The notes under the pieces were generated by a model that worked only from the letters and a program-made list of their open reading frames with translations, was not told where the DNA came from and searched no databases. A stretch of DNA of 40,003 bases from Neocallimastix lanati (nom. inval.) (taxonomy: Eukaryota > Neocallimastigomycota > Neocallimastigomycetes > Neocallimastigales > Neocallimastigaceae): positions 1 through 40,003 of the forward strand of contig JACVTC010000352.1 in assembly GCA_016946835.1 (NCBI GenBank). Direction: 5' to 3'. The translations under genes and the position numbers were made by a program. Every line of letters starts with the position of its first letter. The first letter of the stretch is position 1. This document shows, piece by piece, positions 20,520 through 39,305 of this stretch.

Positions 20520-20825
20520 AGTTAAAATACAAGCCAAACTATATAGTGTTGAACCATCAAATATATAGCTTGTTAACCCTTCTTACAATAAGTCCCCTTA
20601 GCTCTTTATTGATAAGTTGATAATGTCGATTGTTAATTAATAAGAAACTTAATAAAAAGAAGGTAGCAATATTAAATTCTTTTTAATTTGGCTAACTTAT
20701 TGTTAGTAATAAAGAAGATAATAACGTATCCTTCCCAGTATCAACAAGATCAAAACAATAAAGTATTATGTGTGGGTGTTCAACTATCCCGCGTAGAGAG
20801 TTGTAAGACAGTTTATTTATATTTT
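20520..20825 (-). other. Element C leader: G+C-richer island, possible structured RNA
   Basis: Composition rises above the surrounding A/T sequence. Complementary segments include CTATATA / TATATAG (about 20538-20568) and CCTTCTT / AAGAAGG (about 20577-20664). No ORF. No counterpart recognised in D or E. Probably part of the structured leader. Confidence 0.45.
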
Positions 20826-21327
20826 TCTTTTTAATTAAAATTTAATTAATTATATAACGAATAATAGAAAATTTAACACACACAAAAAAAAAATTTCAAT
20901 TATAAAAAATTCAAAAATAAATTTAATTATATAAAATCATAAAAATAATAATAATCTAATTTTATATATTCTATATATATATTGTACATGTATATATTAA
21001 AAAAAAATAAAATAAACTGATAAACATAAAAAAATTACAATTTATTATTTAGAATTATTAATAAAAAAAAATTTTATTTATAAAATTTATTCTTATTTAA
21101 AAAAAATTAAAAATTTGTACTAAAAAAAAAAAAAATTTTATTTATAAAATTTATTCTTATTTAAAAAAAAATTAAAAATTTGTACTAAAAAAAAAAAAAA
21201 TTTTTTTTTTGCTTATTATTTTAATATTTATCATTAATTAAAAAAAATATATATATTTTTTTTTTTTTTTTTTTTTTATTTTTTACATATATAAATCTAT
21301 ATCTATGATAATACTATTGGTTAAAAA

Positions 21328-21497: not shown

Positions 21498-21528
<31 letters not shown>

Positions 21529-21568
21529 GGCGAACAAATTTATAAAAGCCTAAAATAGAAATAAAAAA
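20826..21568 (-). other. Homopolymer-rich leader segment of element C
   Basis: Poly(A), poly(T) and (AAT)n (about 21500-21528) runs. A block of about 65 bp with AAAATTTTATTTATAAAATTTATTC is tandemly duplicated at about 21063-21130 and 21130-21200. No gene. Confidence 0.6.
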
Positions 21569-21860
21569 AAACTATATATTTTAACGTCACTTCGCAAGAA
21601 TGACCAGGGTTTTATCAGGGATCGAACCTGACCCACCTCTTATTTTCTGCGCGAGTGAACAAACTATCACCTGTTGAAGTGTGTAGTTGCCTTCAGCGTG
21701 AAGGTTTTATAGTTCTAGGGCGTATTTGCCTAATTGTCAAGGATTTGTTCCTTGAGATACTCGCGTTTACAATCTACAAAACCTTGCAAAATTGTAAATA
21801 AGAGTTTATGAAATTAATATCCTGCAAGCTAACACTGTCTTACTCGAATATTAACTTCGT
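21569..21860 (-). ncRNA. Element C leader structured RNA block 1
   Basis: Dense set of potential helices. A long-range stem CGCGAGT (21650-21656) / ACTCGCG (21759-21765) encloses hairpins TCAAGGA/TCCTTGA (21737-21755), CCTTC/GAAGG (21690-21704) and AACTA/TAGTT (21662-21688), the last presenting CTTCAACAG (RNA sense) in its loop. Outside lie a tRNA T-arm-like hairpin TCAGG/CCTGA (21615-21631, loop TTCGATC in RNA sense) and a hairpin GTCA/TGAC (21586-21604) followed by TTAAAATATATAGTTT. A possible pseudoknot is at 21767-21828. Part of the transcript 5' leader, not a separate gene as far as can be seen. Confidence 0.6.
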
Positions 21861-22052
21861 AAATTTGTTAACTTTTTATTATTTTTTTTTATTATTATTT
21901 TTTTTCTATAATCTATAATTAAATAAAGTTACTACAAAAACTAAAGTTTTCCAAAGTTTTTTTTTTTTTTTTTTTTTTTTTTATGATAACTTTTATTATT
22001 ATTATTATTAATATTAAATTATTAATTATTATTATTTAATAAAACTTATGGA

Positions 22053-22209
22053 TAATCTGATAGTATACCCTGTCTGACGTGCAGCTTGCCTCTTCACGGC
22101 GTCATGCCACGCGGGTACCACAGCTACTGTATTCAATATAAAATACAGCAGTCCAGAGCCTACTAGCCCAATTACTATGTAGGTTAAACTTAGCCCGGAA
22201 ATCTATATC
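22053..22209 (-). ncRNA. Element C leader structured RNA block 2 (shared with D)
   Basis: About 150 nt clearly homologous to 30772-30923 in element D. Hairpin CTGTATT/AATACAG here is CTATATT/AATATAG in D, and GCC/GGC (22088-22100) is ACC/GGT in D, so single base pairs changed on both sides. Invariant stretches include CTGACGTGCAGCTT and CAATTACTATGTAGG. It lies close to the PBS; role unknown. Confidence 0.65.
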
Positions 22210-22266
22210 CAAGGCTTTGTTAAATAATTTAATTAATAAATAATATTAAATTTTATTTTTCTAATA

Positions 22267-22285
22267 TTCCCCGATATCTCCATCA
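22267..22285 (-). promoter_or_regulatory. Element C primer binding site
   Basis: Minus-strand TGATGGAGATATCGGGG lies 7 nt inside the 5' LTR. It differs from the D PBS (TGGTGGAGATATCGGGG) by one base, likely decay. Confidence 0.7.
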
Positions 22286-24227: not shown

Positions 24228-24311
24228 TATAACAGAATTAATAATTACAATTATTTTATTATTTTAATATTTAGTATTATTTTTCAATAAAGTTTTAAAA
24301 CAAATAATTAA
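24228..24311 (+). repeat. Element E 5' LTR, first 84 bp
   Basis: Identical to 38658-38740 except one A in a short run. The D insertion follows TTAA (24308-24311). The rest of this LTR is at 32500-33057. Confidence 0.92.
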
Positions 24312-24628
24312 TGTTAAGGTTTTAGAGAATTAAATAAAAATAAAGTAAGAAACACAAATTTTATTTATTTATTTATTTATTTTATTTATTTATTTTATTA
24401 AATTTATTTGATTTTATTTGATTTTATTCGATGATATTTAAAAATTAGTAGCAAAATTTACAACTATTTATATTTTTTTTCAAGGCATAAAAGTTGTTCT
24501 TGCCACTAAATTACATTTTATTTATTTTTTTTTTTAAAAACTATTAAATTTAAATTGATTTTTATAATTAATTATATAAAATTTAATTATAACAATATAA
24601 ATAAAATACATTTATAATATTAATAAAA

Positions 24629-24683
<55 letters not shown>

Positions 24684-25179
24684 TTATTTATTTAAAAATA
24701 TCTAAAATATTACTAATAAGAATTTATTTAATTGGCTATAATTTTTATTACAATCTGTTAAAATATTCAAATAAAAATAAAAATACTATTCTAATATAAA
24801 GGTTTTTAATAAAATAAAATATTTTTCAATATAAAATAAAACATTTCGATATAAAATTTTATAATAAAAAGTTAAAATATAATATATAAATTTTTAATTA
24901 TCAATATATAAAAATATTATTAATATAAATTTTCATTATTAATATAAAAAAAATAAGATTTATTATTAATATTGCTAATATAAGTTTTAAATATATAAAA
25001 ATATTACTATTAATATAAGATTTAATATAAAAATATAAAGTTTAATATAATTTTTGATTTAATTTTTGATCTTTGGATTTAAAAATTTATTAAAGTACAA
25101 AAATAATAATGTACACATAATGTATTAGAAATAAATCGTAGATTTAATTAAGAATGCATTATTTAGTACATTCTTATCA
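24312..25179 (-). repeat. Element D 3' LTR
   Basis: 868 bp, identical by eye to 31630-32495 apart from 2 T in the tract at 24631-24681. The terminal dinucleotides are TG and CA. Confidence 0.95.
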
Positions 25180-28100: not shown

Positions 28101-29202
28101 CATTAAATTCATAATTATTAATTTTTACTGGTAATCGAACAATAATTCCTTCCGAGTATTCTTCATCTTGTGTTGCTAGTTGGATTCTTCCACGACTTTT
28201 TCCAACTGTTTCATATTCACCAGGTAATTTATCAAAATACTGCTTAGTAACGATGCTTAGGTTACTACAAGAATCAATTAAAAGTTTTCCTAGTACTCCG
28301 TCAACACTTGCATCAACCATTGCTAAGTCTTCTTCGGCTACTTCATTACTTTTACTTATGTAGCTATGATCATAGTTATTTACTAATAAAGTTCGTGCTA
28401 TTACATTGTCTACAGTTCCAATTATTTTAGATTTTTCTAACTTTAAACCTTGAGTTAATTGTGAACGAATTTTCGGACATGCATTCAAGAGTTGACCTAT
28501 CGTAATACTGGATTTAAGATTATTTAAATCATCCATAATATTGTAAGGTTCTTTATTATTCATCATTTTAATATTCCTCTTTACTAACTGAGTATTTCCA
28601 TTATTAGTTTCTTTAGTTTTTGTTGAAATTAATTTTTCCAAAGTATTAGTTTTATTTTGTTGATTATCTTTATTCATTTCTAGATCTTCTATTTCATTAT
28701 CGATTACAAGTATATCTTCAGATTCAACTTTTTCCTTTCCTTTTGATGAATAATTGTTGTTTTCTTCTTTACTTTCTCTTACTCTTGTTATTTTTCTTAA
28801 TTCCTTTTCTTTTTGTTTTTCTTTGTTAATATTTGGTTGAGTTAAAATTGAAGGAAGTATTTGATTTTTATAAACTTTATTTGGTTTATTATGCAGCTCA
28901 TTTTCTTTCTTCTTTCTTAAAGCAGGAGTTGCAAAAGGACGTGGATTATCTTTTAAACTTTTATGTACTTTCTTGGAATTATTTTCTTCTTTTTCGCTGT
29001 TATTATCATTCATTTTTCTTTTTATAGCATTTATGATGATATCATCCTCACTTTCAGTTGTGTCACTAAAATCAGATTCTTCAGATTCTTCATTAAAGGA
29101 ATTATTATCAATTGGAGTATTCTTAGTAAAAGTATTATTTTGTAAATTATTTAATGAAGCTATTGTTTTGTCATTGGGAGTGCTTCTGCTCCCATTTAGA
29201 AG
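25198..29202 (-). CDS. pol: Element D Pol: protease, RT, RNase H, integrase
   Basis: Intact enzyme polyprotein, expressed by -1 frameshifting from gag; the frame opens at 29202. Numbered from the first Met (29013), 1,271 residues. A charged N-terminal arm with LKDNPRPFATPALRK is followed by protease LIDSCSNLSIVT (D247). RT spans about 430-700 with WSSPVVLILKHNGKWRLCIDY, D534 (TTLDLFSG) and FIDD (596-599). RNase H spans about 735-865 with D744, E788, D815 and D859. The integrase finger is H931, H935, C965, C968; the catalytic triad is D997, D1056, E1092; a C-terminal GPF module follows. No chromodomain. All catalytic residues are present, so this is the only undamaged pol in the window. Confidence 0.95.
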   Translation of the reverse strand, partial: LLNGSRSTPNDKTIASLNNLQNNTFTKNTPIDNNSFNEESEESDFSDTTESEDDIIINAIKRKMNDNNSEKEENNSKKVHKSLKDNPRPFATPALRKKKENELHNKPNKVYKNQILPSILTQPNINKEKQKEKELRKITRVRESKEENNNYSSKGKEKVESEDILVIDNEIEDLEMNKDNQQNKTNTLEKLISTKTKETNNGNTQLVKRNIKMMNNKEPYNIMDDLNNLKSSITIGQLLNACPKIRSQLTQGLKLEKSKIIGTVDNVIARTLLVNNYDHSYISKSNEVAEEDLAMVDASVDGVLGKLLIDSCSNLSIVTKQYFDKLPGEYETVGKSRGRIQLATQDEEYSEGIIVRLPVKINNYEFNADFRIIEKEDSFYDMLINFKTQIDHCLLIHPTLNSLCKLLSESEYEEIAKINNQYYDEESIICTIRKVKETNNEKEIIKELTPMEFIESDEFLSTLNKDYKEQIIKILKEMIDIVATSTEELTPSKLSPHKIRLKANAKPVKLRSYRLTKLKSDILKEELTKLIKKGLIEPSCSEWSSPVVLILKHNGKWRLCIDYRKVNDMTEKDSYSVPCIDEIFDSLGGAKIFTTLDLFSGFHQILMDEESVEVTTFTTKFGNYQFKVMPFGLTGAPSTFQREMNKILFPFIGEFVYVFIDDVLIYSKSIEEHLIHIKQVLEVFKENKLKINIEKCHFLQTEVDVLGHKLTTKGLSPMESKITAIKKWEAPSSIHELRSFLGAIGYYRDFIPKYAQITSPLCKLLKKNTKYEWNKEQQESFELLKEKLINAPILKFPSFDKPFIIRTDASYNGIGGVLLQKEEETGKEHPIHFISRSLKKTEKNYGITDLEGTALFYCMTKFKSYIEGNPLPTTIYTDHKPLVGLFKNKEPLNARQTRWCLTASMLGINIKYESGKKNVLADALSRMKSKEERKILLTKITNGNNEELLSKVIKEFINEKFTVIDGEDYFIDNGNYRKLITDENERFKLILEAHNIGHEGYYKTYQRLKKNFYWNHMIKDIKRIVSNCEKCQLNRPQPYPEPTENHPTKVEGPFVHLGLDIIGPLPKTRNNNQYIIVTVDYFTKWVEAEPTENITSSDIIKFLINVFARHGVPQVITTDNGVQFTSDMTKIFLDLYDVYVKFIATYHPESNGLTENRNKEIGKLLRLLGRKNQDWDEVLPSALWALRTTKNTATGHSSFELVYGREDQQPYDIAIRTIENAGKSYDEILMEKFVRHYQWTREACENVKNANKYWATRREEQISMKKGKELKAGDLVLVRNFSRTKLEPYYNGPFKILKIQFNTATLIDQKTGKQLDRNVHFKNLVKFNSAYREA

Positions 29203-29208
29203 TTTAAA
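29176..29208 (-). promoter_or_regulatory. -1 frameshift signal (element D): heptamer plus hairpin
   Basis: mRNA sense: TTTAAAC (29202-29208), 8-nt spacer, GGGAG, 8-nt loop CAGAAGCA, CTCCC (29176-29193). The gag frame reads TTA AAC TTC TAA. The -1 frame is open into pol. Confidence 0.92.
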
Positions 29209-30107
29209 GACTTTTTGGAATATATTTCTTTTTTATTTTTTTCCATAATCTTATTTAATTGAGGGCAATAGTATGAGTAATGACCTTCTTCCTTACAGAA
29301 GAAGCAAGTTTTAACAGATAAATTTCTCATTTTCTGGGTTGATTCTTCTATAATATCTTGAGGTTTCAGTTTATTATTTGTTTGACTTGTTTGGAAAGTT
29401 TCGTTTCTTCTTTTAGGATAAAGTCTTGAAGTAGTACCGTTTTGATTATTTTGATTATGCTGGGAATTATTAACATTATAGGTATTAATATTATTGTTCC
29501 TTACAGAAAGTCTATCTACTTTCTCGGCAATTTTGAAAGCTTTCTCCATACTTATATCATCTTTAAGGGATAATTTCTTCCAGGCTTCATAATTATTTTG
29601 AATAGAATCAATATAATCTAGTACACCAATGCGCTTTCTTCTCTTTTTATCAAGTTTAGTGTACAAAGTTCTATATCTTACATTAAAGTCTTTAATCTTT
29701 TCGTTTCTTTTAATTCGCATTGCACGAAGTTCTTTAAGAAGTAAATTTTGGTCTTCTTTAATACCGTAAAAATTTTCAAGACTTGAAATAATTTTTCCAA
29801 AAGAAGGAAATTTAATATCATCATCAACATTTTCTTCTTCATCATCATCTTCTTCTTCATCTGATGAATCATCACTTTCATCATCACTATCTTCTCCCAA
29901 ATCTTCAATAACGCGTTGTACTTCACCAGAGCTGGTAAGTAAACAAGCATTAAATATTGTTTCTGGATCTGTAATACCTTGTATCTTGATCCAAAGTTTT
30001 AATTCAGTAGCCCAGGACTTAATATCTAAATTGTCCTTGCTAAGTTTCACAATATCTCTTAATTCTTTTTTCAATTCTTTAAAGCTCAAAGTTGTTTCCT
30101 TGGACAT
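29196..30107 (-). CDS. gag: Element D Gag
   Basis: Capsid/nucleocapsid protein of about 303 codons. The start is placed at ATG 30107 (MSKETTLSF), which aligns with C Gag; the open frame continues 22 codons upstream with no counterpart in C. Order: Gag core (KELKKELRDI, WATELKLWIK), an acidic Asp/Glu/Ser run (about residues 70-95), FGIKEDQNLLLKELRAMRIK-type capsid sequence shared with C, then a CCHC knuckle CFFCKEEGHYSYYC near the C terminus. It ends at the frameshift site into pol. Expected to form particles that package element RNA. Confidence 0.92.
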   Translation of the reverse strand: MSKETTLSFKELKKELRDIVKLSKDNLDIKSWATELKLWIKIQGITDPETIFNACLLTSSGEVQRVIEDLGEDSDDESDDSSDEEEDDDEEENVDDDIKFPSFGKIISSLENFYGIKEDQNLLLKELRAMRIKRNEKIKDFNVRYRTLYTKLDKKRRKRIGVLDYIDSIQNNYEAWKKLSLKDDISMEKAFKIAEKVDRLSVRNNNINTYNVNNSQHNQNNQNGTTSRLYPKRRNETFQTSQTNNKLKPQDIIEESTQKMRNLSVKTCFFCKEEGHYSYYCPQLNKIMEKNKKEIYSKKSLNF

Positions 30108-30281: not shown

Positions 30282-30593
30282 TAAGCTCGAAATCTTTATC
30301 GACAACTTAGTAGAAATTATAAAGCACGAGGTTCTTTTCGACTACTTTATTAAGAATAATTTTTAAGTTCGAAATCTTTATCGACAACTCAATAGAATAA
30401 TTTTTAAGTTCGAAATCTTTATCGACAACTTAATAGAATAATTTTAAGTTCGAAATCTTTATCGACAACTCAATAGAATAATTTTTAAGTTCGAAATCTT
30501 TATCGACAACTTAATAGAATAATTTTAAGTTCGAAATCTTTATCGACAACTTAATAGAATATTTTTCAAGCTCGAAATCTTTATCGACCACTT
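30282..30593 (-). repeat. Array of eight RNA hairpins upstream of D gag
   Basis: Tandem repeat of period 40-41 bp with core CGAAATCTTTATCGAC, seven exact cores (30288, 30370, 30411, 30451, 30492, 30532, 30573) and one diverged unit (30321-30348). Each unit can fold: inner TCGA/TCGA and outer AAG/CTT, extended to TAAG/CTTA, AAAG/CTTT, TTAAG/CTTAA or CAAG/CTTG in different units. The geometry resembles the C array although the sequence is unrelated. Confidence 0.8.
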
Positions 30594-30771
30594 GAATTTT
30601 TTTAATTTAGTATATTTGTAGTAATAAATTTAGAAGCAAAGTTTTATTTATTATTTTCACCTTTCAAAAATTTTCTTTTTAAACGATAAATATTGTATTG
30701 TTATAGCTAATAAAATTATTAATTAATTATAATTATTAAATACAAAAAAAAAATAATCTTTATTGTCGTAC
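30594..30771 (-). other. A/T-rich spacer in D leader
   Basis: No structure or coding signal recognised. Confidence 0.5.
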
Positions 30772-30923
30772 AATCTGATAGTACACACTGTCTGACGTGC
30801 AGCTTACCTAATGGTGTCATGCCACGCGTGTGCCACGATTACTATATTCAATATAAAATATAGCAGTTCAGAGCCCACTAGCCCAATTACTATGTAGGAT
30901 AAACTTAATCCGATAATCTATGT
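30772..30923 (-). ncRNA. Element D leader structured RNA block (shared with C)
   Basis: Homologous to 22053-22209. Contains hairpins CTATATT/AATATAG (30842-30863) and ACC/GGT (30806-30815), both with compensatory differences from C, plus a palindrome CACGCGTG. An unnamed leader element. Confidence 0.65.
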
Positions 30924-31082
30924 ACGGAATAAAAAAAAATTTTAAAAGTATTCAATAATATTTTTATTAACTAATAAAAATTAACTAAAAACACAATATT
31001 TTCAAAGTAAATTAAGATTCTTTTACAGGAATTATTAAACAAATAAAGTATCAGTAATAAAAAAAAAATAAAAAAAATTTAA

Positions 31083-31420
31083 ATGGCGAAGTTAGCCAAA
31101 GTCTGATACTTTATATAATAAAGTGCCTTATAACTAGCACAAAGAAAAGTAAAAAAAAAAATATATATAAAAAAAACAATCTTACGCCTTCGGTGACGTA
31201 AGCTCCTTATTCGCCAGTGCTTGGAAAGTACCCGCACCTTCGTGTGTTGAAACGTTGAAGGCTGAACTATTATTACCGGGTCGGTAACCAAATACCTTCG
31301 TCTACTTTCCAATTAATCTCCAAATTAACTACTATTCAATAACCTACTATGAATAGAGTTAATTTGTTGCTATCTGAGAATACACTGTGTATGAGCTCTA
31401 TCCGCTCCTTGTTATAATTT
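31083..31420 (-). ncRNA. Element D leader structured RNA block (shared with E)
   Basis: In RNA sense the block opens with GGAGCG and AGAGCTCAT (31391-31408), as in E at 33705-33722. It continues with a TTACC/GGTAA hairpin, a CCTTC/GAAGG hairpin (31237-31261) with TTTCAACA in its loop, GTGC/GCAC, then CTGGCGAATAAGGA (31204-31217) and hairpin CTTACG/CGTAAG (31181-31202) with loop TCACCGAAGG. Further hairpins ACTTTAT/ATAAAGT, GTGC/GCAC and TGGC/GCCA follow (31083-31140). The 77-codon ORF here is probably spurious. Confidence 0.65.
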
Positions 31421-31496
31421 TACAAAATTTGTTTTTTTAGAATCTTAATTTTACTTATTTAAAAAAAATTTTTTTTTTTTTTTATATATATATATC

Positions 31497-31542
31497 AAAC
31501 AAGCGCCATAGGTTAATCAAAGGATTAACGACTTACTTGTTT
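31497..31542 (-). other. Two-tier hairpin near D primer site
   Basis: Outer stem AAACAAG/CTTGTTT (7 bp, 31497-31503 and 31536-31542) encloses a perfect inner hairpin GTTAATC/GATTAAC (31512-31529, 4-nt loop). It lies about 65 nt downstream of the PBS in the transcript. Confidence 0.7.
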
Positions 31543-31605
31543 ATCAATATAAAATAAAAAAAAATTAAAAAAAATCTATGTTATTTACTATTATTTCTAT
31601 TTAAT

Positions 31606-31623
31606 TCCCCGATATCTCCACCA
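31606..31623 (-). promoter_or_regulatory. Element D primer binding site
   Basis: Minus-strand TGGTGGAGATATCGGGGA lies 6 nt inside the 5' LTR. It predicts a primer tRNA with acceptor 5' strand GGAGATA. The same sequence occurs at 12299-12316 in plus orientation. Confidence 0.8.
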
Positions 31624-31629
31624 TATAAA

Positions 31630-31946
31630 TGTTAAGGTTTTAGAGAATTAAATAAAAATAAAGTAAGAAACACAAATTTTATTTATTTATTTATTTATTT
31701 TATTTATTTATTTTATTAAATTTATTTGATTTTATTTGATTTTATTCGATGATATTTAAAAATTAGTAGCAAAATTTACAACTATTTATATTTTTTTTCA
31801 AGGCATAAAAGTTGTTCTTGCCACTAAATTACATTTTATTTATTTTTTTTTTTAAAAACTATTAAATTTAAATTGATTTTTATAATTAATTATATAAAAT
31901 TTAATTATAACAATATAAATAAAATACATTTATAATATTAATAAAA

Positions 31947-31999
<53 letters not shown>

Positions 32000-32495
32000 T
32001 TATTTATTTAAAAATATCTAAAATATTACTAATAAGAATTTATTTAATTGGCTATAATTTTTATTACAATCTGTTAAAATATTCAAATAAAAATAAAAAT
32101 ACTATTCTAATATAAAGGTTTTTAATAAAATAAAATATTTTTCAATATAAAATAAAACATTTCGATATAAAATTTTATAATAAAAAGTTAAAATATAATA
32201 TATAAATTTTTAATTATCAATATATAAAAATATTATTAATATAAATTTTCATTATTAATATAAAAAAAATAAGATTTATTATTAATATTGCTAATATAAG
32301 TTTTAAATATATAAAAATATTACTATTAATATAAGATTTAATATAAAAATATAAAGTTTAATATAATTTTTGATTTAATTTTTGATCTTTGGATTTAAAA
32401 ATTTATTAAAGTACAAAAATAATAATGTACACATAATGTATTAGAAATAAATCGTAGATTTAATTAAGAATGCATTATTTAGTACATTCTTATCA
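31630..32495 (-). repeat. Element D 5' LTR
   Basis: 866 bp, identical by eye to the 3' LTR apart from the poly(T) length (31949-31997). Its outer edge is followed by TTAA (32496-32499) and then the remainder of the element E LTR. Confidence 0.95.
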
Positions 32496-32499
32496 TTAA

Positions 32500-33057
32500 A
32501 TTTAAAAAATATTATTTCTGGTATAGTTGTTAGTAACTAATACCATGAATCAAACTACTTAGGGTTCGATTCACATTTATTATTATTTTATAGTTTTATT
32601 CTAAAAAATATCTAGAAGATTCTTTATAGTTCAAGAAATTACTAGAATTTCTTGATAATTCTTGTGTTTAATTAATTAAAATTTATTCTATTAAATTCTT
32701 AATTCTATTGTTTTCTATTTTTTCTAAATTTTTCGATTTTTAAGAACTTTTTAGAAACTTTTATTTTTATTTTTTAATAACTTTAACTTTTGAAAAAAAT
32801 ATAAATATGAGTAAAATTCTTATTAACAAATATTCTTTCCTTTGTGTTTTTTATTTTAATTTTGTTTAGTTAATAAAACTTAATTTTTTAATAAAACTTT
32901 TTTAATATTAATACTATATCAACCCTTGCGGCTTATAGTATTATAATAAATATAATTAATAAAATAATTATAATAAAAGAAAAAAAAAAATAAATAAAAA
33001 ATAAAATAATTTTTGTTTTTTTGAGTGTTATTATATTTATTATAATATTTTGTTATA
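32500..33057 (+). repeat. Element E 5' LTR, remaining 558 bp
   Basis: Continues the LTR broken at 24311 and matches 38741-39300 almost exactly. TATAAAT at 32800-32806 may be the Pol II TATA box. It ends TGTTATA. It also carries Pol III A- and B-box-like motifs (next entry). Confidence 0.92.
32519..32589 (+). promoter_or_regulatory. tRNA-like A box and B box in E 5' LTR
   Basis: TGGTATAGTTG (32519-32529) fits the A-box consensus TRGYNNARNNG. GGTTCGATTC (32563-32572) contains GTTCGATTC, which fits the B-box core GWTCRANNC. Spacing is 44 nt and TTTT follows at 32586. The flanks do not fold as a tRNA (no T stem or acceptor stem), so this is a tRNA-derived or Pol III promoter-like segment rather than a tRNA gene. 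Confidence 0.55.
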
Positions 33058-33704
33058 ATAAAAAACACCCAAGATTTAGACGCCGTGCCTTGATATATCT
33101 ACCCTTTTGTTTGGTTTGAAGCTTTCTTTTGGAATTAGTGTCTACTGCCTTTTTGTTTTCTTTTTGGACTTTATTTTTTGAATCTCTCGGATTTTCTGTT
33201 TCCTTTGTTTTTGGTTTCTGTTTGGCTACTTATCTTATTGGCTTCAGGTTTCCACTTTTGGTTAGATTCTTTCTGTTTGCCTTGGATTTCTTATTTTTGG
33301 TCTTGGTTTCTGTTTCCATTGGTTTCAGATTTCTTAGTTTTGGACTTGGTTTTTGTTTCCATTGGTTTCGGGTTTCTGATTCTTGGTTTCTACTTTTGGA
33401 CAAAATCTCTTCTTCTCTTAGTCTCTGATATCTTCTTTGGGTTCAGCCTTGCTTCTTGAATCTACTTTTTTTTTTTCTTTAAAAAATAAAATTCTCGGTT
33501 TTTGGTATTAATAGCATACTCACAATAATACCAAAATCTATCTAGGCGAAAAAAAAAAAAAAAAAAAAAAAATTTTTGATATAAAAAAAAAAAAAAAAAA
33601 ATTTTTGATATAAAAAAAAAAAAAAAAAAATTCTTTAAGAAGTTCTACAGTTCTTGAGACTTTTTAAAGAATATTACAGGTAAATATAATATTTAAATAT
33701 ACTA
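33058..33704 (+). other. Element E 5' leader, upstream part
   Basis: No TGG-type primer site follows the LTR (ATAAAAAACACCCAAGATTT). About 33110-33470 is T/G-rich and pyrimidine-rich with imperfect repeats built on TTGGTTTCTGTTTCCATTGG; its long ORFs are composition artefacts. A perfect 11-bp hairpin TTTTGGTATTA/TAATACCAAAA lies at 33500-33536. Poly(A) runs ending TTTTTGATAT recur at 33549-33630, and a hairpin TTCTTTAA/TTAAAGAA lies at 33631-33671. Confidence 0.6.
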
Positions 33705-33975
33705 GGAGCGATTAGAGCTCATAAACAGAGTTTCGGCGGTTAGTAACTAGTTTCAGTAGGTTAGAAACTATAGCCGTTAATTATTCGAATATAAACGGGC
33801 TTCAAAACCCTAGGGCGTGAAGAGCGTGTGGATTAAACGAAAGCCACATCCTACCAACCAACTTCAACAGTTCGGTGGTTGCTCTATTCGAATAAGCTCT
33901 GGCGAATAAGGAACTATAGTCACCGAAGGCTATAGGTTGGTCGTGAAGGTAAAGCGACTTTAAAATATATAGTTT
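33705..33975 (+). ncRNA. Element E leader structured RNA block (shared with C and D)
   Basis: Begins GGAGCG and AGAGCTCAT as in D. Contains hairpin CAACCA/TGGTTG (33855-33881) with CTTCAACAG in its loop as in C, then CTGGCGAATAAGGA (33899-33912) and hairpin CTATAG/CTATAG (33914-33935) with loop TCACCGAAGG as in D, and hairpin GTCG/CGAC (33940-33958) followed by TTAAAATATATAGTTT as in C. Part of the leader of the gag-pol mRNA. No known RNA family recognised. Confidence 0.65.
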
Positions 33976-34195
33976 ATAATTTTTTATTTTGAGGTCTAGT
34001 ATATACCTCTAGTTAGTAACTCTTGCCGGTTTTTTATTTTGTTGTAAGGCATAAAAGAGTGAAATTTAGTCTAGTTATTATATTTACCAAATTAAATTTA
34101 AAAAAAAAAAAAAAATTTAAATCAGCAATTAAACTAAACGCCTAGAAAAATAATAATTTATTATTCTTTATCATTACAATTTTCATTCGGGAGCA

Positions 34196-34233
<38 letters not shown>

Positions 34234-34318
34234 ATAATAATAATAATAATAGTGATAATATTAAATAAATCTTCCTATTGCAATTCTTAAACTTGTTTAT
34301 AATTTAATAATTCTTTCA
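33976..34318 (+). other. Element E leader, gag-proximal part
   Basis: A short mixed-composition stretch, then A-rich sequence with about 30 A (34200-34230) and (AAT)n just before the gag ATG. No ORF. Possible hairpin GAGGTCTAGTATATACCTC near 33990-34010. Confidence 0.5.
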
Positions 34319-36643
34319 ATGTCTTCTTCATCAAACGATTTTCATTTTAATGGCGATTCAGCTAAGCTCAAGGGATTTTTAGCTTATGTTGGGTTAGCCA
34401 TTGCTCTTCGTCCTGAATATTTCACCAATGATCCGTTAAAAGTAGCTTATACCATCACTTTGTTAAGAGATGAAGCTATGGATTGGGCTGCAGACTTGAT
34501 GAATGAAAATAACCCAGTCCTTGACGATTTTAACGCTTTCATTGAACTTATGAAGGATAGATTCAGTGACGTAGATGCAGTTTTTAATTGTAATCAAGCT
34601 CTTATGCATATTAAGCAAAAAGCATATGGTAAAGTCACTGATTACAATAATGAATTCCGTAGGCTTTCGGAAAAAACGGACTGGAATGAATTTGCCTTAA
34701 TGGATGTTTATATTGAAGGATTGCTACCAAGACTTCAAGAAAGAGTAATTAGTTTGTTCCCTCCTCCTGCCAAATTAAGTGAACTAATGCGAATTACCAA
34801 TCGTATAGATCATCAAATGACTCGATTCGCAACGATCAACAATTACAATTCTAGAAATAACAGTAATAATAATAATAATTCTCGTAATAATAGGAAGTAT
34901 TATAGATTTAACTCTAGTAATAATAGAAACGCCAATTCTAATTCTTTTTTCAAATCAAATAATGATTCAAATTACTCTCATTTATCCCCTGAAGAAAGAG
35001 CAAGAAGAATTAAAGAAGGGCTTTGTCTATATTGTGGACAATCAGGCCATAAGTTAATAAATTGTCCAAAGCGAGCAAAAAAACCTGGTTCCTCCCATAT
35101 GGCTAGATCTAATTCTTCTAAGAAATTTAATAAAGATTGTATTATTAAGTGTTCCTTTAACTACAAAAATAAATGGATTAAAGCTAAGGCTCTTATAGAT
35201 TCCGGCTCCGACTTGAATCTTATGGATAGTAATTTTGCTAAAATTAATAATTTTAAGCTTGTACATGATAATTTAGAAGCTGATAACATTACTGGTATTG
35301 GTGGTGGCAAAGACGTTGTTGGTAAAACTATACCAATATTATTTAAAGTTAGTAACCTTCAGGTCTTAACAGAATTTTTTGTTATTGATTTGAACGACAA
35401 ATTTGAGTGCTTAATTGGTTCTAGATTTCTTAAAGAAAATAAATCATCAATTGATTTCAACAATAATATTTTAAGCTTTTGCAATAGTAATAACAATGCG
35501 TCAGATTCTTCCTTTGTTGAATCAGTACCTTCGACCTCGGTTAACTCTACTTCACTTTCTCTTACTTCGAATACTTCCGACTCTATCTCTTCGAAACCAG
35601 CCTATTCCAGTTCATGCACCCCTAATAATTCTTTGTTTGATAATTCTTCTATTTCTCCTTCAGTGTTGAAGAATTCAATTGCCTCTTCCCCAAACATGGA
35701 TACTCCAAATAAAACACTTCCCGCCATTTATCTAGAATTCTCTGATGTATTTAGTGAAGAAGAAGCTAAAATCTTACCTCCTCATTCTAGTTTTGATTGT
35801 GCTATTGACCTTAAACCTAATACTAAGTTATATTATAGTGCAATTTATCCCCTTACAATTCCCGAAGAAATAGCTTTAGAAAAAATTATTAAAGACTATT
35901 TAAAATACGGTTTTATTGTTAGGTCAAAATCAGAAGCTGGTCATCCAATTTTATTTGCTCCAAAAGATAATGGTGAGTTACGTATGTGTATTGATCTTAG
36001 GAAACTTAATGAAATCACCATTAGAGATAGTTATCCTATGCCTTTAACAACTGTTATTTTTAATAAAGCTCCTGGTCATAAGTATTACTCAAAGCTTGAT
36101 TTAAAATCTGCTTACTTCCAAATTCGTATCAGGCCTGGAGATGAATACAAAACAGCTTTTGTATGTAGCTTAGGACACTTTGAATTTAGAGTTATGCCTT
36201 TCGGTTTCAAGAATGCACCTGCTTGTTTTCAAAGAATGATTGATACTGCATTAAGTGACTATTTAGGTAAATTTTGTTATGCCTATATTGATGATATTAT
36301 CATTTTTTCTGATGATCTTTCTGAACATCATTTACACGTTAAAAAAGTACTATTACAACTTAGGAAATTTCATTTACATGTTAACCTTGAAAAATGTGAG
36401 TTTGATAAGTTCGAAGTTAAATTTTTAGGATATTATGTATCTTCAGATGGTCTTAAGATGGATATTAAGAAAGTCTCAGCTATTTTAGATTGGCCTGCTC
36501 CAACTACAGTTAAAGAAGTTCAATCGTTTCTTGGCCTAGCCAATTTCTACAGACGCTTTATAAAAAATTTTGCTAAAATTGCTTATCCTCTTAATAAACT
36601 TACAAGAAAAAAATGTTCCTTTTGTTTGGTCAAAAGATGCTAA
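34319..36643 (+). pseudogene. gag-pol: Element E Gag-Pol, part 1: Gag, protease, RT
   Basis: Single frame with no gag stop (774 codons). Gag core at 1-170 (LKVAYTITLLRDEAMDWA). An Asn/Arg-rich basic region precedes the CCHC knuckle C236, C239, H244, C249. Protease motif ALIDSGSDLNLMD with D294 is the canonical D-S-G. A Ser/Thr/Asn-rich linker covers 385-465. RT from about 490 has RMCIDLRKLNEIT, D594 (SKLDLKSAYF), VMPFGFKNAPACFQ and YIDD (656-659), then the thumb. The last residues are out of frame: one extra A in the run at about 36606-36613 shifts the frame, and RNase H continues in the next frame. A shift between RT and RNase H is not a usual programmed site, so this is a mutation or sequencing error. 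Confidence 0.92.
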
Positions 36644-38657: not shown

Positions 38658-39300
38658 TATAACAGAATTAATAATTACAATTATTTTATTATTTTAATAT
38701 TTAGTATTATTTTTCAATAAAGTTTTAAACAAATAATTAAATTTAAAAAATATTATTTCTGGTATAGTTGTTAGTAATTAATACCATGAATCAAACTACT
38801 TAGGGTTCGATTCACATTTATTATTATTTTATAGTTTTATTCTAAAAAATATCTAGAAGATTCTTTATAGTTTCAAGAAATTACTAGAATTTCTTGATAA
38901 TTCTTGTGTTTAATTAATTAAAATTTATTCTATTAAATTCTTAATTCTATTGTTTTCTATTTTTTCTAAATTTTTCGATTTTTAAGAACTTTTTAGAAAC
39001 TTTTATTTTTATTTTTTAATAACTTTAACTTTTGAAAAAAATATAAATATGAGTAAAATTCTTATTAACAAATATTCTTTCCTTTGTGTTTTTTTATTTT
39101 AATTTTGTTTAGTTAATAAAACTTAATTTTTTAATAAAACTTTTTTAATATTAATACTATATCAACCCTTGCGGCTTATAGTATTATAATAAATATAATT
39201 AATAAAATAATTATAATAAAAGAAAAAAAAAAATAAATAAAAAATAAAATAATTTTTGTTTTTTTGAGTGTTATTATATTTATTATAATATTTTGTTATA
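38658..39300 (+). repeat. Element E 3' LTR
   Basis: 643 bp, uninterrupted, TATAACAG to TGTTATA. It shows the sequence that D interrupts in the 5' copy (AAATAATTAAATTT at 38731). A box at 38760-38770 and B box at 38804-38813 are conserved with the 5' LTR; the one change between them (C to T) lies in neither box. Confidence 0.95.
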
Positions 39301-39305
39301 ATTAG

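Follow-up and report, generated by a model that had tools for sequence, protein, structure and literature searches.

A structured RNA block in the 5' leaders of Ty3/gypsy-type retrotransposons of Neocallimastix lanati, shared by families with unlike gag genes

Two neighbouring elements and their leaders

The DNA considered here is a stretch of 40,003 nucleotides (nt) – henceforth the window – from contig JACVTC010000352.1 of the anaerobic gut fungus Neocallimastix lanati, and the genome searched is the assembly of this species (199 Mb in 762 contigs). One of its sugar transporters shows 93% identity to proteins of N. lanati and N. californiae. Two Ty3/gypsy-type retrotransposons adjoin within the window: D, on the minus strand, and E, on the plus strand, each with a pair of long terminal repeats (LTRs) and with the order gag, reverse transcriptase–RNase H, integrase. 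Between 5' LTR and gag both have a long leader, and in each leader lies a structured RNA block of about 370 nt, which we call M1. Several of its loops are conserved across element families; its stems drift with compensation.

31625..32495, minus strand: 5' LTR of D, 99.7% identical to 24307-25179
29196..30107, minus strand: gag open reading frame (ORF) of D, from its ATG
32492..33059, plus strand: 5' LTR of E, 99.3% identical to 38733-39302
34319..36643, plus strand: gag–pol ORF 1 of E (Ty3_capsid, reverse transcriptase)

Architecture of M1

In RNA sense, M1 runs from a first hairpin (H1) through a domain closed by two stems, P2 and P3 – containing a side arm (Ha) and a hairpin of three base pairs – to a linker and three further hairpins, H3, H4 and H5.

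In E (plus strand throughout):
33694..34068: M1, from about 10 nt before H1 to the end of H5; the sole leader block common to E2 (see below)
33706..33720: H1, GAGC-GATTAGA-GCTC
33726..33901: long-range closing stem P2 (33726-33731 with 33896-33901)
33748..33770: side arm Ha, loop AGTAGGTTA, which D has as well
33781..33895: second closing stem P3 (33781-33790 with 33886-33895)
33797..33810: inner 3-bp hairpin, GGG/CCC, 8-nt loop; the single-sequence fold prefers other pairings
33902..33913: linker GCGAATAAGGAA, conserved across D, E, E2 and F; G has another
33914..33935: H3, CTATAG/CTATAG, loop TCACCGAAGG
33991..34009: H4, GAGGT/ACCTC, absent from single-sequence folds
34019..34060: H5 (ACTCTTGCC, GGTTTTTT...GTTGTAA loop, GGC...AAGAGT); the outer stem is also in the energy fold

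In D (minus strand throughout):
31048..31410: M1
31393..31407: H1, GAGC-GGATAGA-GCTC
31215..31387: closing stem P2 (31382-31387 with 31215-31220)
31332..31356: side arm Ha
31221..31312: stem P3 (31303-31312 with 31221-31230)
31283..31296: inner hairpin GGT-ATTTGGTT-ACC, after GACGAA; single-sequence folds prefer other pairings
31181..31202: H3, CTTACG/CGTAAG, loop TCACCGAAGG
31123..31140: H4, GTGCT/GGCAC
31048..31109: H5-like hairpin, GTATCAG/CTGATAC, interior unlike that of E, F and G

A first-pass annotation of this DNA, made from its letters, had picked out H3 with its flank at 31181-31220 in D (minus strand) and 33896-33935 in E (plus strand), and its description holds: the two stems differ by three compensated pairs out of six around an identical loop, and GGAGCG lies 212-215 nt upstream of that loop in both elements. 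The extent that it gave to the block was too short at the 3' end, beyond which two more hairpins lie. The predicted fold adds two pairs to H3 (U-G and C-G), leaving a loop of 6 nt, and the distance from the start of AGAGCTCATA to GGCGAA is 184-187 nt, or 179 nt in one E copy.

The same plan is built from different stems in two further families, F and G (introduced below). P2 is CAGTGT/GCACTG in D, CAGAGT/GCTCTG in E, CAGAGT/ACTCTG in F and CGTTGT/ACAACG in G; the inner hairpin, of the form GACGAA-NNN-ATTTGGTT-NNN-GAC, has GGT/ACC in D, TAG/CTA in F and TCT/AGA in G, and E has GGG/CCC around a loop other than ATTTGGTT. The P3 stems differ throughout between families.

Covariation and folding

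Selection on RNA structure, which the annotation had proposed, is supported by the way in which the stems change. Across D, E, F and G, all 184 cells are paired, and double changes occur at 37 of the 56 pairs. When one partner strand is slid by one to three positions, only 31-42% of cells remain paired and 4-10 pairs show double changes; none of 2000 shuffles reached either 184/184 paired cells or 37 double changes. The helices therefore do covary by these controls, a point on which the annotation had staked its proposal. Strands matched within a family pair in 208 of 209 cases, as against 308 of 632 when crossed between families.

The count over 56 pairs comprises D, E, F and G, plus a row H for H3 only and element C (see below) for H4 only; E2, the remainder of H and C, and D at H5 were left out. 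Ha was counted for D and E only and F's shorter P3 was counted alone, so that its 6 pairs cannot show change. Few families (four main ones) enter the count, and the paired percentage is biased because helices were chosen for their pairing; the fairer evidence is that of the anchored helices – H3, P2, the inner hairpin and inner H5 – whose position is fixed by flanking sequence. R1, a covariance model based on the hairpins of D, E and F only, scores the unused family G at 24.0 bits (E = 1.5e-5); this is supportive rather than fully independent, since G had been picked by the loop that R1 also scores.

Compensation is also seen at closer range. In three D copies (L011, L013 and L028; examined genomic loci carry such numbers) the side arm has been rebuilt from TCTC/GAGA to TTCC/GGAA, together with other changes, and its loop TAGTAGGTTAT is kept; between E and E2, H5 shows two double changes (ACTCTT/AAGAGT versus GCTTTT/AAAAGC). 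Among 24 D copies aligned to the window copy – representing 22 distinct places, as L079 contains both L036 and L037 – divergence amounts to 0.18% in M2 (a second module, described below), 1.38% in M1, 2.7% in gag (a figure that includes some ragged ends), 3.0% in the part of the leader that follows M2 and 3.25% in the LTR (including the poorly aligned L080, 332/845). Because the stretches beside the modules are equally conserved (1.13% from primer binding site to M1, 0.10% from M1 to M2), low divergence within D is not specific to structures.

Thermodynamically, the short H3 hairpin taken by itself has no exceptional stability (z -1.4 to -1.7), and the larger block exceeds it (z -2.1 in E, -4.4 in D, -1.8 in F). 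Whole-block energy folds of D and G show most of the model, and that of E shows H1, P2, P3 and H3 without H4; for F, the model appears only when the sequence is cut at H3. A loop–loop pseudoknot (ACCG with CGGT), spotted by eye only, was too weak to claim. Searches of Rfam 15 gave no gathering-level match in the window, and at E <=10 only a chance match within 30600-34400, to KRAS_3UTR (E = 9.2) outside M1, and none in the C leader; at E <=5, loci L009, L058 and L081 returned only a tRNA, the positive control, and a chance microRNA match.

M1 in other element families

The annotation's proposal depended on further copies of the block, and these exist: the core pattern GGCGAATAAGGA-N5-12-TCACCGAAGG, present twice in the window against 0.00 expected from the shuffled window, occurs 497 times genome-wide and 0 times in a reversed control. 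One hundred of these matches were listed and the first 30 (L009-L038) examined. All 30 sit in retrotransposon leaders, 16 of them in D, 4 in E, 5 in F and 5 in a new family, E2, with gag downstream in 29 – recognised by match, by ORF or through alignment with a copy in which the gag ORF had been read. At L036 the contig ends 1064 bases downstream, with 111 gag bases aligned at 15 mismatches. Wherever gag was seen, M1 sits in the leader upstream of it. In viral contigs the core motif gave 0 matches.

A loop-centred pattern gave 58 matches genome-wide against 76 in its control, a total not above chance; 25 of the 58 nevertheless share one sequence, which defines family G, and all 12 G loci examined have the same new gag downstream. 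Searches with stem and loop variants also returned L043, which is diverged and D-like and has a D-like gag (81%). No more M1 families came from allowing G or C as third H3 stem base (0 matches), from inner-hairpin variants (0 matches) or from H5 variants (0 matches in one search, 6 against 15 in the control in another). M1 is thus found in D, E, F, G and E2; F gag matches Ty3_capsid, and the class of F, G and E2 is read from the gag region alone. Five candidates for non-autonomous carriers without gag proved to belong to E2, whose gag is a different one, so that no such class was shown.

A further element of the window, C, probably carries a diverged M1:

21527..21770, minus strand: probable M1 in C (closing stem ACGCGAGT/ACTCGCGC, AATAAGAG linker, TTAAAATATATAGTTT, H4 TAGGC/GCCTA)

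Here 7 of 8 closing-stem pairs and 5 of 5 H4 pairs form; model R1 misses the block, and the closing stem is missing from the C single-sequence fold. The place of H3 is taken by a T-arm-like hairpin, TCAGG-TTCGATC-CCTGA (window 21600-21660, minus strand).

The case for M1 as a cassette is strong for E and E2. The E2 leader (L027, 1294-1664) matches four E copies over 371-375 nt only, at 92.8-93.6% identity, from about 10 bases before H1 to just past H5, and the rest is unalignable save for A/T runs; the two gags are 39-41% identical. F and E2, conversely, have gags 68% identical and M1 blocks of only 62%. D gag is 50% identical to that of C and weakly matches that of G (E = 1.6e-9), and it has no significant match to the gags of E, E2, F or F2 (a family taken up below); the H3 loop is nevertheless identical in D and E. 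M1 is common, then, to two gag groups – D, G and C on the one hand, E, E2 and F on the other – and, as similarity in M1 does not follow similarity in gag, the histories of module and gag disagree. M1 behaves as a cassette, strongly so for E/E2 and likely in general. That it is structured and shared between families is well supported, and so is the inference that it has moved between them as a unit; the simplest route would be template switching during reverse transcription of co-packaged RNAs.

Start codons and primers in the leaders

AUG triplets are scarce in the leaders compared with a shuffle null:

E: 0 in 1259 nt, 12.2 expected
F: 0 in 1260 nt, 11.5 expected (start chosen at L009:1001)
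D: 2 in 1515 nt, 17.2 expected
E2: 2 in 1516 nt, 13.5 expected
F2: 3 in 1242 nt, 10.4 expected
G: 2 in 836 nt, 9.3 expected (start chosen at L058:1001); 1 in 647 nt from the primer binding site
C: 11 in 2386 nt, 27.2 expected

The null is somewhat generous, as controls also fall below expectation – LTRs of D (9 versus 9.8), C (6 versus 6.3) and E (2 versus 5.2, P 0.06), and intergenic DNA with 25 versus 35.6 on one strand (P 0.008) and 36 versus 39.9 on the other – and the deficits in the leaders are far larger. A gag start was found in 10 of 12 E copies, 9 of which have an AUG-free leader. Avoidance along whole leaders suggests that ribosomes scan them. An exception is the AUG in the G linker (GTTAATGCG, L058 1496-1502), which opens a short upstream frame through H3.

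Some leaders also contain AUG-poor low-complexity tracts – T-rich upstream of M1 in E and E2, CAA/GAAATC-rich repeats in F2 – that look as if kept open for scanning:

33060-33690 of the window: tract in E
L027 230-640: tract in E2
L081 2830-3090: tract in F2

Primer binding sites were identified in three elements:

31606..31623, minus strand: D, complementary to the tRNA-Ala(TGC) 3' end
22268-22285, minus strand: C, fits tRNA-Ala(TGC)
L058 1190-1207: G, fits tRNA-Trp

By eye, E has no TGG-type site adjoining its LTR. Near the LTR end, E2 and F2 have the string AATAAAAGCACCC in common, and inspection by eye shows a similar string in E; elements with such a string may prime differently.

Two further modules

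Two other structured stretches, M2 and M3, occur in these leaders:

30765..30930, minus strand: M2 in D
22047..22215, minus strand: M2 in C
20540..20870, minus strand: M3 in C; also in F (L009 1700-2015) and F2 (L081 3215-3515)

M2 is GC-rich and 85% identical between D and C; of its 52 pairs, 0 are broken and 9 doubly changed, as against 0-1 when slid, and 2 of 500 shuffles reach that figure. Among 629 genome candidates for the D-type M2, each of the best 40 shows 100% identity over 150 nt. In M3, compared across C, F and F2, 92.8% of cells are paired over 85 pairs, 27 of them doubly changed; sliding gives 37-47% paired and 1-4 double changes, and 0 of 500 shuffles reach what is observed. The scores of both modules are favoured by the structures having been predicted from the same alignments.

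The order of modules differs: M2, probable M1 and M3 in C; M1 and M2 in D; M1 and M3 in F; M3 in F2 – the differing place of M2 relative to M1 depending on the probable M1 of C. Like M1, M2 and M3 would be cassettes. It is possible, rather than probable, that the leaders of LTR retrotransposons in anaerobic gut fungi amount to a shared toolkit of at least three unrelated structured cassettes, shuffled independently of gag, pol and primer and serving as host-facing modules for translation or RNA handling.

What M1 may do

The account of M1 that we favour, tentatively and as somewhat short of an even chance, is that of a structured block moved between families as a unit, a host-facing cis-element that most likely aids translation of gag. 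It would act in cis through host machinery, not through each family's own Gag or primer tRNA, and would recruit or retain 43S ribosomes, which would then scan across the very long leader to the gag AUG. That M1 is a signal for a single Gag or a single primer is unlikely, because it is shared across unlike gags, primers and distances. Help with translation is inferred to be the likeliest function, with RNA packaging a close rival. The link to translation draws on the position of M1 in leaders ahead of gag and on the near absence of AUG from these leaders, which suggests that ribosomes pass through them.

Several observations weigh against this account. Although M1 provides the large conserved structure in a 5' leader that an internal ribosome entry site (IRES) would show, upstream AUGs, which such a site would tolerate, are rarer than expected in the stretch before M1, both in E (0 in 631 nt, 5.9 expected) and in E2 (2 in 1071 nt, 9.5 expected); the pattern fits cap-dependent scanning of the whole leader and needs no internal entry site. 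It counts against M1 being the sole entry site but is compatible with an auxiliary role in recruiting or retaining ribosomes. G even has an AUG within M1. Nor is the placement of M1 fixed, the distance from H5 to the gag AUG being 82 nt in E2, 208 in G, 258 in E, 623 in F and 940 in D. The architecture is uneven, with another linker in G, no AGTAGGTTA arm loop in F and G and another H5 interior in D; the model does not appear in the minimum-energy folds of the whole F and C blocks, and the H4/H5 region of F prefers another fold. F2 has a gag 72% identical to that of F, yet no M1 is seen in its leader, and the leader of element A is only 196 nt, so that M1 is not essential to every element. Lastly, the leader before gag is just where retroviral and Ty cis-signals, those for packaging among them, lie (PMC4974528).

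That M1 is instead an encapsidation or dimerisation signal (Psi), bound by the zinc knuckle of Gag and recombining because of packaging across families, is somewhat less likely than the translational account, to which it is a close rival. The leader position suits it, near the primer binding site (in D, C and G, where that site is identified) and gag, and leader recombination requires co-packaging. A putative CCHC-like knuckle is present in the Gag of each of D, E, F, E2, C and G, and those of C and E match weakly at the knuckle (16 amino acids, E = 8e-5). BARE-1 and BARE-2 are said to share packaging signals. Sharing across unlike gags argues, however, against Gag-specific packaging: M1 similarity does not follow Gag similarity, D Gag has no significant match to the E, E2 and F Gags despite the identical H3 loop, and F2 lacks a visible M1 despite its F-like gag. 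Packaging signals are, moreover, usually short hairpins, a complexity that the multibranched M1 exceeds.

An improbable alternative is a role in RNA export or stability, similar to that of a retroviral constitutive transport element, whereby unspliced RNA would leave the nucleus or escape decay through host proteins. Loops conserved across unlike elements, a variable distance to gag and the existence of M2 and M3 fit such a docking site for host proteins, but export elements are usually 3'-terminal and M1 was seen in leaders in all of the first 30 among the 497 matches. Still less probable is a part in starting reverse transcription, by primer placement or strand transfer: M1 does lie downstream of the primer binding site in D and G, but its carriers do not have one primer in common (tRNA-Ala for D and C, tRNA-Trp for G), and 8-mers complementary to tRNA-Ala outside that site are near chance in six leaders (0-2 versus 0.4-1.3 expected).

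Residual ancestry or sequence-level constraint, with stems arising by chance, deserves hardly any weight: the few families compared, helices picked for folding, the conserved stretches beside M1 and M2 in D and the F and C folds speak for it, but the slid and shuffled controls fall far short of what is observed, flanking sequence rather than pairing fixes where H3, P2 and the 3-bp hairpin lie, and compensation recurs inside D and in M2 and M3.

Relation to known mobile RNA elements

Structured RNAs that pass between genomes are known from viruses. IRESs of type IV (like that of hepatitis C virus) have spread by recombination among Flaviviridae and Picornaviridae (PMC7354566), and M1 resembles viral IRES classes as described there in being a large structured 5' leader unit that moves between genomes with unlike coding regions. 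It differs in belonging to fungal LTR retrotransposons, in having no fixed distance to an AUG, in being AUG-poor on both sides and in lacking an Rfam match; an IRES role is only a candidate.

The stem-loop s2m is a structured RNA of unknown function common to different viral families (PMC3197151). M1 is, similarly, a structured motif shared by E/E2, D, F and G, whose coding regions are unlike. The s2m motif is highly conserved and located at the 3' end (PMC3197151), whereas M1 is about 370 nt long, lies in the 5' leader and drifts with compensation.

With the packaging and dimerisation signals of retroviruses and of Ty1/Ty3, M1 has in common its 5' position in the element RNA and its nature as a cis-acting structure (PMC4974528); unlike them, its sharing ignores Gag similarity, two unlike Gag groups carrying it. 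Avoidance of upstream AUGs in the M1 leaders favours scanning, which sets them apart from retrotransposon IRESs, to which M1 would otherwise be alike as an LTR-retrotransposon RNA element tied to translation. IRESs have reportedly been found in the RNA of a Mytilus Steamer-like element and in Drosophila gypsy.

In searches of open-licence papers we found no report of large structured leader RNAs swapped as cassettes between cellular LTR-retrotransposon families, nor of such leader elements in anaerobic fungi. If our account is right, the idea of mobile RNA modules – mobile IRESs and s2m – would extend from RNA viruses to retrotransposons; the possible toolkit of shuffled leader cassettes would then parallel, within cells, the trading of IRES classes among families of RNA viruses. 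It would also become testable whether host-facing RNA modules, rather than Gag, drive leader evolution, and the covarying structures would be ready for probing and for annotation as new RNA families in a fungal group with few tools.

Minor observations

The D leader has tandem repeats of about 40-41 bp in the interval between M2 and gag (window 30282-30597). At its outer end, the 5' LTR of D adjoins another element – E, F, another D, G or one like F2 – directly or within about 300 bp; as these loci were partly selected for close motif spacing, no frequency is derivable from them:

32492-32495 of the window
L078 2120-2363
L079 2359-2363
L080 2357-2361
L081 2310-2588

Finally, G adjoins a tRNA gene at 4 of the 12 loci scanned (L058 343-430, L048, L069 and L077), the gene at L058 lying about 13 bp from the start of the G LTR; insertion beside tRNA genes resembles the targeting of RNA polymerase III genes by Ty3.

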